Of a DNA stretch of 64,000 nt, positions 34,045 through 41,519 are shown one piece after another. The DNA is taken from the NCBI RefSeq assembly GCF_015097055.1, contig NZ_AP023366.1:1550001-1614000 (forward strand), written 5' to 3'. Position numbers and translations under genes: made by a program. Each line of letters opens with the position of its first letter. The stretch's first letter is position 1. This DNA comes from Effusibacillus dendaii. Its GTDB lineage: Bacteria; Bacillota; Bacilli; Tumebacillales; Effusibacillaceae. The notes under the pieces were generated by a model. The model searched no databases. It was not told the DNA's origin and was given only the letters and a program-made list of their open reading frames with translations.

Positions 34045-34947
34045 CTACTGGCGTTCGGCGATAAAATCAGGACGTGACTTTTTGCCGTGGAACGGCTCTA
34101 CCAGCTTATTTTCAACACTGTTATAGACGAGAAACACGTTGCTTCTTGCAATCGGAGTAATATTGCTGTTTGATCCGTGCATGATATTGCAGTCAAACAA
34201 TAGAATCGATCCCGCTTTTCCTGTCGGCGTCTGAATGCCAAACTTCTGATAGAGCCACGTCAGGCTGTCCGGGTCGGGGACCCCATATTCCTGACGGCGC
34301 AAGGACTGTTTATAATGGTCGTCAGGCGTGTCTCCCACACACGAAACAAAATGTCGGTGCGAGCCCGGCATGACCATCAGCGGACCGTTCTGCTGATGAT
34401 TATCGGTCAGCGCGATCGAACAGCTTAGCGCTCTCATGCGGGGCATTCCGTCTTCCACATGCCAAGTCTCAAAATCCGAGTGCCAATAAAATTCCTTCCC
34501 CTTAAACCCCGGTTTAAAATTAATTCGGGATTGGTGGATATACACTTCACTGCCCAAAATTTGCCGCATGATATCCACCAATTTAGGTCCTTGCGCCAGT
34601 TCCCTAAACACCTGGTTGTTCCGGTGTACGGCAAACACGGAACGAACCTCTTCACTTTCCGGTTCCCGAATAATTTCCGGCGCATCCGAATGTTTGCCTG
34701 CCTCCCACACATTCTGCAATTCATCCCGAAAATACTGAACCTCTTCTCCTGAGAAGAAACCTTCCAGAAACAGATACCCGTGTTGATCATAAAATTGCAG
34801 TTGTTCGCGAGTTAACGGTCCTGGTGCGGAATCCCCGCCATGCAGCACCGCATCTTTCCGGTCCAAAATCTGCGGAGTACGGCTGACTCGTGAAGGATAC
34901 AGATCGATCATCCGCTGACGGTCGCCGGTCATCGCGTTTGAACTCAT
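34045..34947 (-). CDS. ectD: Ectoine hydroxylase
   Basis: A 300-residue non-haem Fe(II)/2-oxoglutarate dioxygenase that makes 5-hydroxyectoine. Iron ligands are His156 and Asp158 (YWHSDFETWH) and His257 (IMHGSN). QSRINFKPGFKGKEF is the ectoine-hydroxylase signature. Length is standard. It is the last gene of ectABCD, 27 bases after ectC, and is followed by a strong terminator. Hydroxyectoine suggests protection against heat and drying as well as salt. Confidence 0.97.
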   Translation of the reverse strand: MSSNAMTGDRQRMIDLYPSRVSRTPQILDRKDAVLHGGDSAPGPLTREQLQFYDQHGYLFLEGFFSGEEVQYFRDELQNVWEAGKHSDAPEIIREPESEEVRSVFAVHRNNQVFRELAQGPKLVDIMRQILGSEVYIHQSRINFKPGFKGKEFYWHSDFETWHVEDGMPRMRALSCSIALTDNHQQNGPLMVMPGSHRHFVSCVGDTPDDHYKQSLRRQEYGVPDPDSLTWLYQKFGIQTPTGKAGSILLFDCNIMHGSNSNITPIARSNVFLVYNSVENKLVEPFHGKKSRPDFIAERQ

Positions 34948-34974
34948 AGTTACCCCCCCTGTTCCCTTGTTTGT

Positions 34975-35376
34975 TCATGCCCCCGCTTCACTTTCATCGA
35001 GCGGATACGCGCCGTCCGCATCGTGCACTTCACGTCCTGTCAATGCCGGATTAAACACGCAGATGACCCGCATATCTCTCGTTGTTGCCCGTAAGTAATG
35101 TTTTTCATGGCCGTTTAACACATACATGGTTCCCGGTTGGATGTGGTAAATCGTGCCGTCCGCAATGACCTCCACTTCTCCTTCCCCGTCGATGCAGTAC
35201 ACCGCTTCGATATGATTTTTGTACCAAATCAATGTTTCGGTGCCCGCTTTAATGATCGTGTCATTCAAAGAAAATCCGACACCATCTTTTTTCAAAAGCA
35301 GCCGCCTGCTGTTCCATGTAGGCGTATCCACATCATGCTCCGTCCCGATAATATCCTTCAATTTCCTCACTATCAT
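34975..35376 (-). CDS. ectC: L-ectoine synthase
   Basis: A 133-residue cupin enzyme that cyclises N-gamma-acetyl-diaminobutyrate to ectoine. It starts MIVRKLKDIIGTEHDV and has TWNSRRLLLKKDGVGFS, the metal-site region HIEAVYCIDGEGE and LNGHEKHYLRA, all typical. Length is normal. GGAGAGGAGAATCG precedes the ATG. Gaps to ectB and ectD are 25 and 27 bases. Confidence 0.97.
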   Translation of the reverse strand: MIVRKLKDIIGTEHDVDTPTWNSRRLLLKKDGVGFSLNDTIIKAGTETLIWYKNHIEAVYCIDGEGEVEVIADGTIYHIQPGTMYVLNGHEKHYLRATTRDMRVICVFNPALTGREVHDADGAYPLDESEAGA

Positions 35377-35401
35377 ATCGATTCTCCTCTCCCCACCTCG
35401 T

Positions 35402-36694
35402 CTAGTTAACTGGCAAATCTCTCCGGCACTGTTCGAAACTGGCCGCTATAATCTGCAACCCCTTTTCCAATCCTTCGTTATCAATAATGAGGGGCGGCAG
35501 CAATTTAATCACTTCGCTGCTCGGCCCGGACGTTTCCATAATTAAACCTTTGTCAAACGCAGCCGCGCAGATTTTCTCAGCCAATCCGTCTACTCCAAGA
35601 GCGATTCCCTGGATCAACCCGCGACCGCGAACTTCTCCGCGCATTTCCGGATATCTCTCCACCAATTGCCGCAGGAAACGATTGACCTTCTCCCCTTTTT
35701 GCTGAATCTGTTTGCTGAACTGATCGGTTTCCCAGTACTGCAGGGCTTCCCTGCCAGCCACAAAGGCGAGGTTATGCCCGCGGAAAGTTCCGTTATGCTC
35801 GCCTGGTTCCCAGACATCATGTTCCGGTTTAATTAACGTCAGAGCCAGCGGAATGCCATATCCGCCGATTGATTTCGACAAGCAGATAATATCAGGTTGG
35901 ATGCCCGCCGGTTCAAAACTGAAAAAGGGACCCGTTCGGCCACATCCCACCTGCACATCATCAACGATCAGCAAAATCTCCCACCGACGACAAATACTTT
36001 CAATTTCTTTCAGCCATTCAAAACTGGCCGCGTTAATGCCACCTTCGCCTTGAACCGTCTCGAGGATAATGGCTGCAGGGAGAGAAACGCCGCTGCCATT
36101 GTCTTCGAGGAACCTCTCGATGTATTCTGCCGTGTTGACTTGGTTCCCCAGGTAGCCGTCAAATGGCATCGAGACCGTATTCGTCAGGGACATGCCGGCC
36201 CCCCTGCGCTTAAACTTGTTGCCGGTAACCGAAAGAGAGCCTACTGTCATACCATGAAACGCATTCGTGAAGCTCATGACTATTTCCCGTCCCGTCACCT
36301 TTCGAGCAAGTTTGAGGGCGCTTTCTACCGAATTGGTTCCTGTCGGACCGGGAAACATCACTTTGTAATTCAGCTTTCGAGGTTTCAGAATGACGTCGCG
36401 GAAACCGACCAATAGCTCTTCCTTCGCCTCTGTAGCCATATCCAGACTGTGTGTAATCCCATCCTTCATCAAATATTCGATCAGCTTCTGTTTGATTTTG
36501 GGATTGTTATGCCCGTAGTTGAGAGACCCGGCACCGGCAAAAAAGTCAATGTACTCCTTGCCTTTCCGATCCCATACCTTGTAGCCGCTGGACCTGCTGA
36601 ACACGGTCGGGAAACTCCGGCAATAGCTGCGCACCTCCGATTCCAACTGCTCAAACACATACAACGGGTTTGTCACTTCCTCCAAAATCTTCAT
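35402..36694 (-). CDS. ectB: Diaminobutyrate-2-oxoglutarate transaminase
   Basis: A 430-residue class III aminotransferase. It converts L-aspartate semialdehyde to L-2,4-diaminobutyrate with glutamate as donor, the first ectoine step. Features: [51 protein letters not shown] and the PLP Lys in [10 protein letters not shown]. The start at 36694 follows AAGGAGGAATGAG. A 75-base gap to ectA is the largest within the ect genes. Confidence 0.96.
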
Positions 36695-36769
36695 CTCATT
36701 CCTCCTTATCAATCTGACAGATTACAATTATTCTAGTAACCATTCATTCGGACAGCTTATGGGCGAAAC

Positions 36770-37264
36770 TCAACAGTTCAATTGTGAGAACGGACCAATC
36801 CGGAACAACATTTCCGCTTCATGCGCCCCATCTAAAAACAGCTCCACCGGGAAACATTCGGTAACCCTGCAGCCTGTCTTCCAATCCCTCGCAAAACCTC
36901 GAAACAAGGATTCGGAAGGACGGTTGGACGGGGAAATGGTCGTTTCCAGAAAACGCACTCCGCGACATACATCCCTTGTCATCAGAAAACGTAACAAGGA
37001 TTTTCCAATCCCTTTTCCCTGCTGCGTGTTTGCCACACCCACCTGCCAGACGAATATCGTGTCCGGCTTGCCGGGAGGCAGAAAAGCGGTGATAAATCCG
37101 CAGATTTTTCCATTGTATTCGGCAACCACACAGGTGTGAGGGAAGTATTTGCCCATCATTAAATAGGCATAGACCGAATTCACATCCAATACACCTGTTT
37201 CCTTTACAATGGTCCAAACGTCAGCTCCGTCCTGTTCGGTCATATTTCGGAACGTCAAGTGCAT
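36770..37264 (-). CDS. ectA: Diaminobutyrate acetyltransferase
   Basis: A 164-residue GNAT enzyme that acetylates diaminobutyrate at the gamma-amino group. EctA signatures: WTIVKETGVLDVNSVYAYL, FVWQVGVA and the acetyl-CoA loop QGKGIGKSLL, then ETTISPSNRPSESLFR. It begins five bases after the end of ehuA, so synthesis genes are joined directly to the uptake genes. Confidence 0.96.
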   Translation of the reverse strand: MHLTFRNMTEQDGADVWTIVKETGVLDVNSVYAYLMMGKYFPHTCVVAEYNGKICGFITAFLPPGKPDTIFVWQVGVANTQQGKGIGKSLLRFLMTRDVCRGVRFLETTISPSNRPSESLFRGFARDWKTGCRVTECFPVELFLDGAHEAEMLFRIGPFSQLNC

Positions 37265-37269
37265 GGCCT

Positions 37270-38091
37270 TTAGAATCCATTTGTCCGAAAACGATTAAGG
37301 AACATCTGCAGCCGGGGACTTTTCGGATTTTCAAAAATCTGTTTGGGGGAGCCCTCCTCAACAATTTTGCCGCCGTCCGTAAACAAAATACGATCTGCCA
37401 CATCACGCGCAAACTCCATTTCGTGTGTAATCAACAGCATCGCCATATCGCCTTCCGCCGCAATTTCTTTGATCACTGTCAACACCTCCCCAACCAATTC
37501 GGGATCCAAGGCAGATGTCGGTTCATCAAACAGCATCACTTTCGGCCGCATGACCAATGCTCTCGCAATCGCCACACGCTGTTTTTGACCACCCGACAGT
37601 TGGCCCGGATATTTGTCCAACTTATCCAACAGCCCGACTTTATCCAACATGATCTTGGCTCTCTCCACCGCCTCCTCTTTTGACAGACCGAGCACCCGAA
37701 TGGGCGCTTCCGTCACGTTGCGCAAAATGGTCATATGCGGAAACAGGTTAAAATGTTGAAACACCATGCCAATGCTGCCTCGCACACGATGCAGATGTTT
37801 TTCGTCCGCCCGCGTCAGTCTGCCTTTTACTCTCTTGTGCCACAGCAGTTCTCCATCCACTTCAATCGTGCCGGCCGTCGGTTCTTCCAGCGTCATCAGC
37901 AAACGGGCGAGTGTTGTTTTGCCGGATCCGCTCGGACCGATCACCGCCACCTTTTCCCCCGGATAGATATCCAGATCGATTTCCTTTAGTACCTGCAGAT
38001 CGCCATATGATTTGCTGATTTTCCGATAGCGGACAATCGGATTTCCCTCCACATTCTCATATCCCTCGTACAAACTGGACACATGGATCAT
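37270..38091 (-). CDS. ehuA: Ectoine/hydroxyectoine ABC transporter ATPase
   Basis: A 273-residue polar-amino-acid type ATPase. Walker A GPSGSGKTT, Q-loop QHFNLFPH, signature LSGGQKQR, Walker B VMLFDEPTSALD and the H-loop ITHEM are all intact. The start at 38091 gives normal spacing from GGGAGG; an ATG two codons earlier abuts it. It pairs with permeases EhuC and EhuD. Specificity for ectoines is inferred from the ect genes in the same operon and from the EhuBCDA gene set. Confidence 0.92.
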   Translation of the reverse strand: MIHVSSLYEGYENVEGNPIVRYRKISKSYGDLQVLKEIDLDIYPGEKVAVIGPSGSGKTTLARLLMTLEEPTAGTIEVDGELLWHKRVKGRLTRADEKHLHRVRGSIGMVFQHFNLFPHMTILRNVTEAPIRVLGLSKEEAVERAKIMLDKVGLLDKLDKYPGQLSGGQKQRVAIARALVMRPKVMLFDEPTSALDPELVGEVLTVIKEIAAEGDMAMLLITHEMEFARDVADRILFTDGGKIVEEGSPKQIFENPKSPRLQMFLNRFRTNGF

Positions 38092-38114
38092 GCTCATCCT
38101 CCCACTTCCTTTGC

Positions 38115-38765
38115 TTATTTTTGTTCAAGCCTCAATTCCATTCGGCGAACCCAAATGGCAGACAGATAACTTAACAGCAGGAACAGGAATCCGGCAATCG
38201 TGAACGCCTCCAGATAGCGAAACGACTGGGAACCGATCATTTTAGCGGTTTGCATCAGTTCTACTACCGTAATCGTAGAAAGAAGCGGCGTTTCTTTAAA
38301 CATCGTGATCAGGTAATTGCCCAAAACCGGCACAACTGGCCGAATGGCCTGCGGTAAAATAATCCGCATCCATGTCTGTGATCTGGAAAAGTTCAACGCA
38401 ATCGCCGCTTCCCATTGTCCGCGCGGCACATTTTCAATGCCGGCCCGGTACACTTCGGACAAATAGGTGCTGTAATGCAGACCCAATCCAATCACGCCCA
38501 CTGTGAAGGCGGGTAACGAAATACCGTAAAACGGAAGCGCGAAATATAAGAAATACAATTGAATCAAAAGCGGCGTGCTGCGGATAAACTCGACCACCAA
38601 ACCAGACGCCCATGCAATCGGCTTTCGCTTTGACCGGCGGCCAAAAGCCAACAGCATCCCTAACAAAGCGGCCAGTACGAAACCTGATAATGTGGCCTCA
38701 ATGGTCACATCAACCACTTTCAACAACTTCGGCAAAATCGAATATGCAAACTCCCAATCCCACAT
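38115..38765 (-). CDS. ehuD: Ectoine/hydroxyectoine ABC permease EhuD
   Basis: A 216-residue HisM-type permease with about five helices. The N-terminal segment is YSILPKLLKVVDVTIEATLSG, the FIRSTPLLIQLYFLYFALP motif is present, and the EAA loop is GQWEAAIALNFSRSQTWMRIILPQA. Partner of EhuC in the membrane. Its start lies three bases from the ehuC stop. Confidence 0.92.
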   Translation of the reverse strand: MWDWEFAYSILPKLLKVVDVTIEATLSGFVLAALLGMLLAFGRRSKRKPIAWASGLVVEFIRSTPLLIQLYFLYFALPFYGISLPAFTVGVIGLGLHYSTYLSEVYRAGIENVPRGQWEAAIALNFSRSQTWMRIILPQAIRPVVPVLGNYLITMFKETPLLSTITVVELMQTAKMIGSQSFRYLEAFTIAGFLFLLLSYLSAIWVRRMELRLEQK

Positions 38766-38768
38766 CTT

Positions 38769-39416
38769 TTACACCCTCCCTGCGGAAACTCTCCGTTCCA
38801 ACCAACGCACAACAAGAGTCAGGGAGTACGCAAGAACAAAGTAAATGACAAGAATAAGCCCCAATATCTCCGGCGTTCTGGCAATGTTTGCGGTTCGCAT
38901 CAGCATACCGGTAAACGTCAAATCGGATAATGTGATCAGCGAAACAAGCGATGTGCCTTTTAAAAGTTCAATCAACAGATTTCCGAAAGCGGGCAGCATC
39001 AGAGTAAACGCTTGCGGGAGGATCACGCTCCGCATCCGCTGAAACGAGGTCAGGTTCAACGCGATTGCAGCTTCCGTCTGCCCTTTTGGAATCGCCTGAA
39101 TCGAACTACGGACAATCTCCGAACCGTAAGCGCCATAGTTCAGTCCTAACGCCAGAACACCTGTTGTCATCGGCTCCAGTTCAATTCCCAATATTGGCAA
39201 AGCGAAAAACAGCCAAAACATTTGCACCAGCAATGAAGTACCCCGAAAAAATTCCACATATACGGCTGCAGCCATTCGCACCCATGCCCATTTTGACAAA
39301 CGACACAACCCAGCGGTGAATGAAAGGAGCAAAGCTGCAACCGCAGAACAGGCCATTACTTGCAGAGTCACTTCTACCCCGTGCAGAAGGGGTGTAAACA
39401 GGTCAGTCGGAAAAAT
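38769..39416 (-). CDS. ehuC: Ectoine/hydroxyectoine ABC permease EhuC, ATT start
   Basis: A HisM-type permease of 215 residues if started at ATT 39416. The N-terminus FPTDLFTPLLHGVEVTLQVM aligns with the EhuD N-terminus, and the EAA loop is GQTEAAIALNLTSFQRMRSVILPQA. The first standard start in frame is GTG 39371, which would cut off the periplasmic start of helix 1. ATT stands seven bases after GGGGTG and 18 bases after the ehuB stop, so initiation at ATT is preferred. CTG 39401 is a less likely alternative. Confidence 0.85.
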   Translation of the reverse strand: MFPTDLFTPLLHGVEVTLQVMACSAVAALLLSFTAGLCRLSKWAWVRMAAAVYVEFFRGTSLLVQMFWLFFALPILGIELEPMTTGVLALGLNYGAYGSEIVRSSIQAIPKGQTEAAIALNLTSFQRMRSVILPQAFTLMLPAFGNLLIELLKGTSLVSLITLSDLTFTGMLMRTANIARTPEILGLILVIYFVLAYSLTLVVRWLERRVSAGRV

Positions 39417-39434
39417 GGTTCTGCACCCCTTTCC

Positions 39435-40340
39435 TTATTTCAATAATTCTTCTGCCGTTTTACCGCCCGGCAGTTCCTGCTTGGTAAATCCGAACGGGCT
39501 TAGAATGTTCAGAAGTTCGCCTGAATCCTCCAGTTTTTTCAATTCCTCGTTATACGCTTGCCGGAAATCATCGTCCCCTTGGCGGAAAACGGCAGCCCCA
39601 TAACCGCGTATACTTTTACCATCGATCACCGGCTGTTCGAAATCCATGACCCTCTCAATCGAAGGATCTTTCGCTGAATCCATCACTGCCTGCAAAGAAG
39701 GACCGGTCATTGTAATGGCGTTTACACGTCCGGCCTGCAGAGCGTTGATGGCAGAAGGCTGATCGGATACAATCACGATTTGGCTATCCGACACCCCGCT
39801 CTTTTTCAGATAATCGATCTCGATGGCGCCCCCCATTACACCAACTTTCACTTCTGAATTGGCGGCAATATCCTTATAACTGTGAAGATTCATCGGATTC
39901 CCCTTCTTAACGGCAATCGCTTCCCCAATACTGTATTCAGGATTGGCAAAATCGACCTGCTTCGCCCGCTCCGGCGTAATATACATACCCGCCGTAATGA
40001 TGTCGAAACGTTTTGCTTTCAGCCCCGGAATCAACGACCCGAATTCGGTCAATACACCGTTTACTTCTTTGATCCCAAGGTTTTTCAGAACGGCGCGCGC
40101 GACCTCAACCGCTTCACCTGTCAATTTGCCGTCCGGGGCCGCATAGGCGTATGGTTTTTCGTTGGCAAAACCGACTGTCACATACCCCTGCCGTTTTGCT
40201 TTTTCAAACGCAGTTTCCTGTTTGCCGGAATCTTGCGCCGACCCGCTTGTGCTGCCGCCGCATCCTGCCAATAAAAGCCCGGCAGCCAGAACACCGGTCA
40301 ACATCGCAGCCCATTTTGATTGCAAAGTTTTGCTTTTCAT
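39435..40340 (-). CDS. ehuB: Ectoine/hydroxyectoine substrate-binding lipoprotein
   Basis: A 301-residue solute-binding protein. The signal peptide ends in the lipobox LLAGCGG (Cys about residue 27). The mature part is a family 3 polar amino-acid binding fold: YVTVGFANEKPYAYA, GEAVEVARAVLKNLG, LIPGLKAKRFDIITAGMYITPER. This EKPYAY signature is typical of EhuB. The start at 40340 follows AAAGGAG. First gene of the ehuBCDA-ectABCD unit; the c-di-AMP riboswitch and a terminator lie upstream. Confidence 0.94.
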   Translation of the reverse strand: MKSKTLQSKWAAMLTGVLAAGLLLAGCGGSTSGSAQDSGKQETAFEKAKRQGYVTVGFANEKPYAYAAPDGKLTGEAVEVARAVLKNLGIKEVNGVLTEFGSLIPGLKAKRFDIITAGMYITPERAKQVDFANPEYSIGEAIAVKKGNPMNLHSYKDIAANSEVKVGVMGGAIEIDYLKKSGVSDSQIVIVSDQPSAINALQAGRVNAITMTGPSLQAVMDSAKDPSIERVMDFEQPVIDGKSIRGYGAAVFRQGDDDFRQAYNEELKKLEDSGELLNILSPFGFTKQELPGGKTAEELLK

Positions 40341-40387
40341 TTCATTTCTCCTTTCTGATCTCATCTCGCACATCCAGGCCATGCAAC

Positions 40388-40901: not shown

Positions 40902-41282
40902 TCACCACCAATAACCTCCACCGTACCCGTACGGTGCTCCATACCCATAACCATAAGGCCTACCGAATCCATACGGTCTGCCGTACCCGTATCCGTATGG
41001 TGTGCCATACCCTCCATATGCGCCCAGCGAAAATAAAGTGGTAAGCGGAAGCAAGAAAGGCAGGAACACCGTTTCCGCATCCATCGCAGCCGGTCGATCC
41101 GCCGTTGTAAAGTCAACCTGGCTGTCTTTACGGTTCGCCGAAGCATGTACCGGGATCGGCTGCAGCAATATTCCTTTTCGGCTTACCCGTTGCACGATGC
41201 CATAATGTTTTTGGTGCCCTTTGCATTCCGCACATACAGGCTTCCCCAAAAATCGCAGCGCTTCTTGATAGGTAACCGCCAA
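40902..41282 (-). CDS. Small-barrel protein with Gly/Tyr-rich tail
   Basis: A 126-residue paralogue of the protein at 9977. The N-terminal barrel is AVTYQEALRFLGKPV and HYGIVQRVSRKGILLQP. A linker and a short hydrophobic segment (FLPFLLPLTTLFSLG) follow, and then a Gly/Tyr/Pro-rich repeat tail (YGYGRPYGFGRPYGYGYG) ending in GGGYWW. The start is TTG 41282, eight bases after GGGAG, matching the ATG-AVTY start of the paralogue; upstream in-frame ATGs give unrelated sequence. The CxxC-like AECKGH is unique to this copy. Spore-surface role is inferred. Confidence 0.75.
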   Translation of the reverse strand: MAVTYQEALRFLGKPVCAECKGHQKHYGIVQRVSRKGILLQPIPVHASANRKDSQVDFTTADRPAAMDAETVFLPFLLPLTTLFSLGAYGGYGTPYGYGYGRPYGFGRPYGYGYGAPYGYGGGYWW

Positions 41283-41519
41283 ATTGTTCTCTCCCTTCCT
41301 GTTATGGCTTCCTCTCATCGTACGGGAATGATCGCGGAAAAGCTCTCCGCAGACGCTCATTTTCCCCCTCCCTATCCGGCACAATACACAAACTGCCGTG
41401 GATCCATTCACGCATTTGAACGATTGGGACAGAAAAAAACATCCTCCCGTGAGAAATGCCCGTACCAAAAACTTCTGACTCTGAATGAAATAAAAAAAAG
41501 TCTGTCGGGGAGGTGAACT

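Follow-up and report, generated by a model that had tools for sequence, protein, structure and literature searches.

The window analysed in this study, a stretch of 64,000 nucleotides from Effusibacillus dendaii, carries ehuB, ehuC, ehuD, and ehuA as one operon on the same strand, and each of the four genes scores above the cut-off of its NCBIfam model (Table 1). They are followed on the same strand by ectA and ectB, both also above cut-off, and the next two ORFs resemble ectC and ectD by eye (window 34045–37264, minus strand); ectoine uptake and synthesis seem to share one gene cluster. The ORF upstream of ehuB (window 40902–41468, minus strand), whose tail is strongly enriched in Gly, Tyr, and Pro (GYGYGRPYGFGRPYG...), gave no NCBIfam match.

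Table 1. Features of the ehu operon and of the ehuC start region (positions in the window).
Feature	Position	Strand	Remarks
ehuC	38769–39416	−	215 residues from ATT; predicted ectoine/hydroxyectoine ABC permease subunit; TIGR03004 254.1 bits (cut-off 196.95)
Proposed ehuC start codon ATT (residue 1)	39414–39416	−	Sole start-like in-frame codon at Shine-Dalgarno distance; ATC, ATT, ATA, ATG, GTG, TTG, or CTG at the equivalent site of orthologues
Extended Shine-Dalgarno (SD) AAAGGGGTG	39424–39432	−	Duplex with the 16S tail, −15.0 to −15.6 kcal/mol
GTG within the SD, out of frame with ehuC	39424–39426	−	7-codon ORF; start candidate only given one wrong or lost base; frame analysis by hand
GTG, first in-frame standard start codon (residue 16)	39369–39371	−	
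ehuB, substrate-binding protein	39435–40340 (ATG 40340)	−	TIGR02995 303 bits (cut-off 191), scanned from the longer ORF start at 40382
ehuD, second permease subunit	38115–38765	−	TIGR03003 319 bits (cut-off 205); ATG 3 bases past the ehuC stop
ehuA, ATP-binding subunit	37270–38097	−	TIGR03005 373 bits (cut-off 345)

Start Region of ehuC

On the minus strand, the ehuB stop codon TAA (39437–39435) is followed by GGAAAGGGGTGCAGAACC and then by ATT (39416–39414), with 18 bases between TAA and ATT and seven between the end of GGGGTG and ATT; both distances had been given by an earlier, sequence-only reading of this DNA and were read again here. The ehuC frame opens directly past the ehuB stop, which lies in the same frame, and a scan from that stop found no ATG, GTG, or TTG until GTG 39371, in agreement with the earlier statement that this is the only standard in-frame start. 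Three near-cognate codons stand in frame near the start, namely ATT 39416 (residue 1), CTG 39401 (residue 6), and CTG 39386 (residue 11); therefore, the presence of some ATT is unremarkable in itself, and the ehuC ATT is rated above chance because of the comparison with orthologues.

The 16S tail GGATCACCTCCTTTC used for the duplex calculation occurs 7 times in the genome. The aligned spacing of ATT is 5 or 9, depending on the extent of the duplex, and the nearest in-frame standard codon stands at 50; for calibration, the spacing was measured in 223 strong-SD ORFs of this genome that begin with ATG, with a mode of 7 and values mostly of 5–10. It is highly improbable that another in-frame near-cognate, such as CTG 39401 or CTG 39386, is used instead: CTG is likewise a weak start, and a single orthologue (L253) has CTG at SD distance, but these two codons lie 15 and 30 bases farther from the SD than ATT in a genome whose common spacing is 5–10. 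RNA folding of the start region was unremarkable (z −0.80). The SD sequence AAGGGGTG is perfectly complementary over 8 bases to CACCCCTT in ehuC codons 8–10 (window 39388–39432, minus strand), and pairing of the two might mask the SD; this pairing is absent from the minimum-energy fold that gave the same z-score.

The TIGR03004 match to EhuC begins at residue 5. In an AlphaFold2 model, residues 4–39 form one helix of 36 residues (mean pLDDT of the model 91.4, residues 1–10 only 72), and the glycine at position 13 (G13) is invariant in 18/18 aligned sequences. A start at GTG 39371 would give an EhuC of 200 residues without the first 15, and we regard this as very unlikely. Although GTG 39371 is the first in-frame standard codon, has GGGG nearby, and would be picked by a gene finder restricted to ATG, GTG, and TTG, a strong SD lies 50 nt upstream of it, and in the model the truncated protein would lack 12 of the 36 first-helix residues, a third, including G13, much as the sequence-only reading had anticipated when it stated that this start would clip the first helix.

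Start Codons of ehuC Orthologues

TIGR03004 searches of overlapping sets of 14, 398, 42, and 261 genomes yielded 47 EhuC above cut-off, the window included, of which 46 were counted; the very divergent L274 was excluded, since its frame scored nearer ehuD. Four loci (L276, L277, L279, and L280) duplicate others, and three (L281–L283) under the family cut-off were left uncounted. For each gene, the best pairing between the 16S tail and the sequence upstream was computed, followed by the distance to every in-frame codon, with 4–12 nt taken as the SD window.

Among these 46 Bacilli genes, the SD window held an AUH codon (AUC, AUU, or AUA) and no standard start in 24, a standard start in 15, CTG in 1, and nothing in 3, and the SD was weak in the remaining 3. 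The AUH codons of the 24 were ATC in 17, ATT in 6, and ATA in 1. The same script gave different profiles for the neighbouring genes (n = 46 each): ehuD had AUH 4, standard 33, CTG 1, and none 8; ehuA had AUH 0, standard 25, none 9, and weak SD 12; and ehuB had AUH 1, standard 17, none 12, and weak SD 16. Fisher tests of ehuC against ehuD (p = 9e-6) and against ehuA (2e-9) ignore relatedness and serve as a rough guide only, the AUH counts being not independent because the species are related. The mean SD duplex was strongest before AUH, at −16.3 for AUH-start ehuC compared with −11.7 for other ehuC and −14.1 for ehuD.

Several controls bear on these counts. For 41 ehuC genes, AUH was found in the SD window in frame in 25/41 and in the other two frames in 4/41 and 3/41. 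A near-identical script called AUH in 28/30 Bacilli for infC, the positive control, and in 0/26 paralogous permeases (3/29 paralogues were skipped, and the 26 rows contain three duplicates, L003/L004, L020/L230, and L034/L231). Within 864 kb of this genome, 7/845 ORFs were AUH-only, ehuC being one of them and alone in having its AUH fewer than 20 codons from the frame opening; the other six, with AUH at 20–55 codons, are taken as chance. In the same genome, the start region of infC, GGGGGTGACTCACTATTAGT, has seven bases between GGGGTG and ATT, a layout identical to that of ehuC. The ATT start of infC (L226 1483–1485) stands behind GGGGGTGA.

The sequence-only reading had treated the ATT as a lone oddity, which does not hold, as AUC, AUU, or AUA occupies this site in the ehuC of many Bacilli. 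Judged from these orthologue sequences, an AUH start with an extended SD is conserved among the relatives of ehuC, though the trait is not universal (15/46 standard). In four of the 24, the AUH is free of any earlier standard codon in the open frame: the window, L245 (ATA), L250 (ATC after AAAGGGGTG), and L255 (ATT). A standard codon occupies the start place within the same layout in L239 (GTG), L248 and L254 (TTG), and L284 (ATG), and L253 (G031) has CTG there, with its ATG and GTG nearer to or within the SD. The search of the other 3 genomes of the genus found no ehuC above the TIGR03004 cut-off, and a plasmid search returned EhuC that was only distant (301 records, all <60% identity).

The reading of ATT as the ehuC start could have been overturned by relatives beginning at the place of GTG 39371. 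An ATG or GTG lies exactly at residue 16 in five orthologues (L234, L241, L251, L265, and L269), at 46–67 nt from the SD, and no orthologue has an SD-supported start there. SD-supported starts, among them the annotated EhuC start of S. meliloti, cluster 12–16 residues before the invariant glycine, and the window ATT stands 12 before it. The earlier proposal of ATT as the start is the best-supported reading.

Close coupling to ehuB was considered as a general reason for AUH and rejected, as the distance from the ehuB stop to AUH ranges over 18–139 nt across the 20 AUH loci listed, with the value 18 only in the window.

A tree of 57 EhuC, with the first 15 residues removed, was built quickly and has many weak forks; with five ambiguous rows omitted, at least 7 changes between the AUH and standard states, in either direction, were counted on it. 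On this tree, the AUH genes occupy several places: a clade of 14 genes, L267 together with L269, L245 together with L250, the window together with L237, and L255. Within the clade of 14, every gene has ATC in the start column, and 0/8 other Ile-rich columns (≥11 Ile) use a single codon. These data suggest that the ehuC start codon has shifted among ATG, GTG, TTG, CTG, ATT, ATC, and ATA at a single fixed site.

GTG Within the SD

In 20/24 AUH-only ehuC, a standard codon stands in frame at the AUH position or upstream of it, and in 18 of these it is a GTG within the SD itself (AAAGGATGTGAT...); L228 (ATG), L265 (GTG), and L272 (TTG), three of the 20, are plainly ambiguous. It could be argued that in Bacilli with an SD-internal GTG this codon is the true start, and that AUH starts are limited to the few genes without it. 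The number of such genes, 18 of the 24, speaks for this, as does the observation by eye that all 14 genes of the ATC clade keep the GTG as GTG; if ribosomes can use an SD-internal GTG, those genes have no AUH starts. We nevertheless consider this rather unlikely. The aligned spacing to the SD-internal GTG is −1 to −4, against the usual 5–10, and SD pairing extends through and beyond the GTG, reaching −23.2 kcal/mol in L256. The codon-uniform ATC start column, set against the mixed codons of the other Ile columns, argues in the same direction. In Streptomyces sigR, according to the available text of PMC5472188, the annotated GTG sits in AGGAGGTG and proved a wrong annotation, the real start being a GTC downstream.

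Natural variants are also informative. L254 has TGA in frame at the place of the GTG and starts at TTG, either at the AUH site or two codons earlier. L268, which is outside the 24 and has a weak SD (−7.3), carries GTA in place of the GTG found in L269, of the same genus, and keeps its ATT. L239 shows the seven-base step of the window from the SD GTG, with a GTG start at the place. As far as sequence comparison can indicate, these variants agree with the SD-internal GTG not being the start.

Possibility of a One-Base Error

A one-base assembly error was suspected at the ehuC start because the ribosome-binding site contains a GTG that is out of frame. With a one-base indel just after the SD, arising in the assembly or in the strain, the true start would be GTG 39426–39424, which is now out of frame. 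The frame from ATT to this GTG is off by one base, and in frame the GTG would be residue −2, a position at which L007 has ATG and both L009 and L010 have GTG. Further, the assembly carries at least one apparent one-base error: in a frameshift survey covering 139 kb of conserved sequence, one of 5 raw candidates was judged clear, in fumarate hydratase. The frame of this class I (alpha-type) enzyme is split at a nine-T run (G000:C1 ~1326190–1326227, L171, outside the window) and is intact in a genus relative; the split looks like either an indel of the assembly or a genuine mutation in a core enzyme. The available text of PMC8502169 describes PacBio RSII sequencing and FALCON assembly for E. dendaii skT53, the strain inferred here, and names no short reads or other platform. 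The G+C content of the genome, 48.0–49.2% in three pieces, agrees with the 48.2% published for that strain.

Against this explanation, GTG 39426 lies within the SD, the T run at the ehuC site is only five long, and in L239 a GTG start follows the corresponding GTG at an equal seven-base step. The separate assemblies of L245, L250, and L255 repeat the AUH layout without any standard start. We therefore hold an indel at this site to be distinctly unlikely. A programmed +1 frameshift from GTG 39426 into ehuC (TTT-T slip) was inspected by hand and rejected, as there is no slow codon or stop after the slip and the orthologues are without it.

Discussion

Based on this evidence, ehuC of this genome is most likely translated from ATT 39416, as the local form of a conserved Bacilli arrangement. 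The strong extended SD, seven bases before ATT, would position the ribosome, and the initiator tRNA would read AUU. More generally, ehuC of Bacilli would start at AUC, AUU, or AUA, with GTG, TTG, ATG, or CTG in some lineages, at 12–13 residues before the invariant glycine of the first helix.

In 43/45 loci, the ehuD start falls within an interval from 4 bases upstream to 8 bases downstream of the ehuC stop; therefore, translation of ehuD is probably dependent on that of ehuC. IF3 may discriminate against the AUU of ehuC as it does at infC, and the weak start codon probably limits the amount of EhuC and, through coupling, that of EhuD, as far as the gene arrangement indicates. The permease would then be less abundant than EhuB, which has its own ATG; an excess of binding protein is generally required. 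In S. aureus reporters in poor medium, AUH codons gave about 10% of the AUG output, according to the available text of PMC13009471. It is conceivable, though we put this forward only tentatively and with some doubt, that the conserved AUH (mostly AUC), combined with SD pairing among the longest known, forms a dedicated throttle, in which IF3 discrimination sets the levels of EhuC, of the coupled EhuD, and of the permease relative to the binding protein, perhaps tracking growth or osmotic state.

These findings have a practical side, as the N terminus of EhuC is probably misannotated in many genomes, at the SD-internal GTG or, as here, far downstream. The ehuC family also offers a natural series for following the trade-off between start codon and SD strength and the use of IF3 discrimination. 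Our search of open-licence PMC papers found nothing on the ehuC start codon, and the paper PMC11497404 contained no information on AUU or AUC.

Conserved non-canonical starts are known for only a small number of bacterial genes, each found singly. One of these genes, infC, starts at AUU, AUC, or AUA, and its product IF3 discriminates against this codon of its own gene, resulting in autoregulation. The ehuC gene is like infC in the GGGGTG-N7-ATT arrangement within the same genome, whereas the autoregulatory loop of infC has no evident counterpart for ehuC. The view of the sequence-only reading that AUU initiation is known mainly for infC and pcnB is outdated, as cvfC1, ccpN, Borrelia pncA, and, with GUC, Streptomyces sigR are on record.

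Conserved AUH starts with an extended SD were reported in 2026 for cvfC1, ccpN, and infC, and Kohl et al. 2026 described AUU for cvfC1 and AUA for ccpN in Staphylococcus aureus and relatives (PMC13009471, available text). The ehuC gene is comparable with cvfC1 and ccpN in having a conserved AUH behind a strong extended SD in Bacillota, and its AGGGGT fits the AGGNGT motif given there (PMC13009471). The starts of cvfC1 and ccpN were proven by retapamulin ribosome profiling and reporters in the same source, whereas that of ehuC is proposed from sequence. Unlike these two genes, ehuC encodes a transporter permease, has mostly AUC in its relatives, and uses standard codons in some lineages.

In the available text of PMC5472188, sigR resembles the ehuC relatives, with an annotated GTG in the ribosome-binding site, a non-canonical start just downstream, and a coupled gene next; it differs from ehuC in its GTC, in belonging to a regulatory gene pair of Actinomycetota, and in that its start was proven experimentally, through mutation, the use of IF3 mutants, and the N terminus of the protein after purification. 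Similarly, pncA (BBE22) of Borrelia burgdorferi has an AUU missed by annotation and a database protein without its N terminus, although the gene and the phylum are unrelated to those of ehuC and its start was shown by genetics, biochemistry, and structure (PMC13398362, available text). Taken together, the best reading of the sequence comparison is that ehuC joins infC, ccpN, and cvfC1 in the small group of genes that combine a conserved non-canonical start with a strong extended SD.
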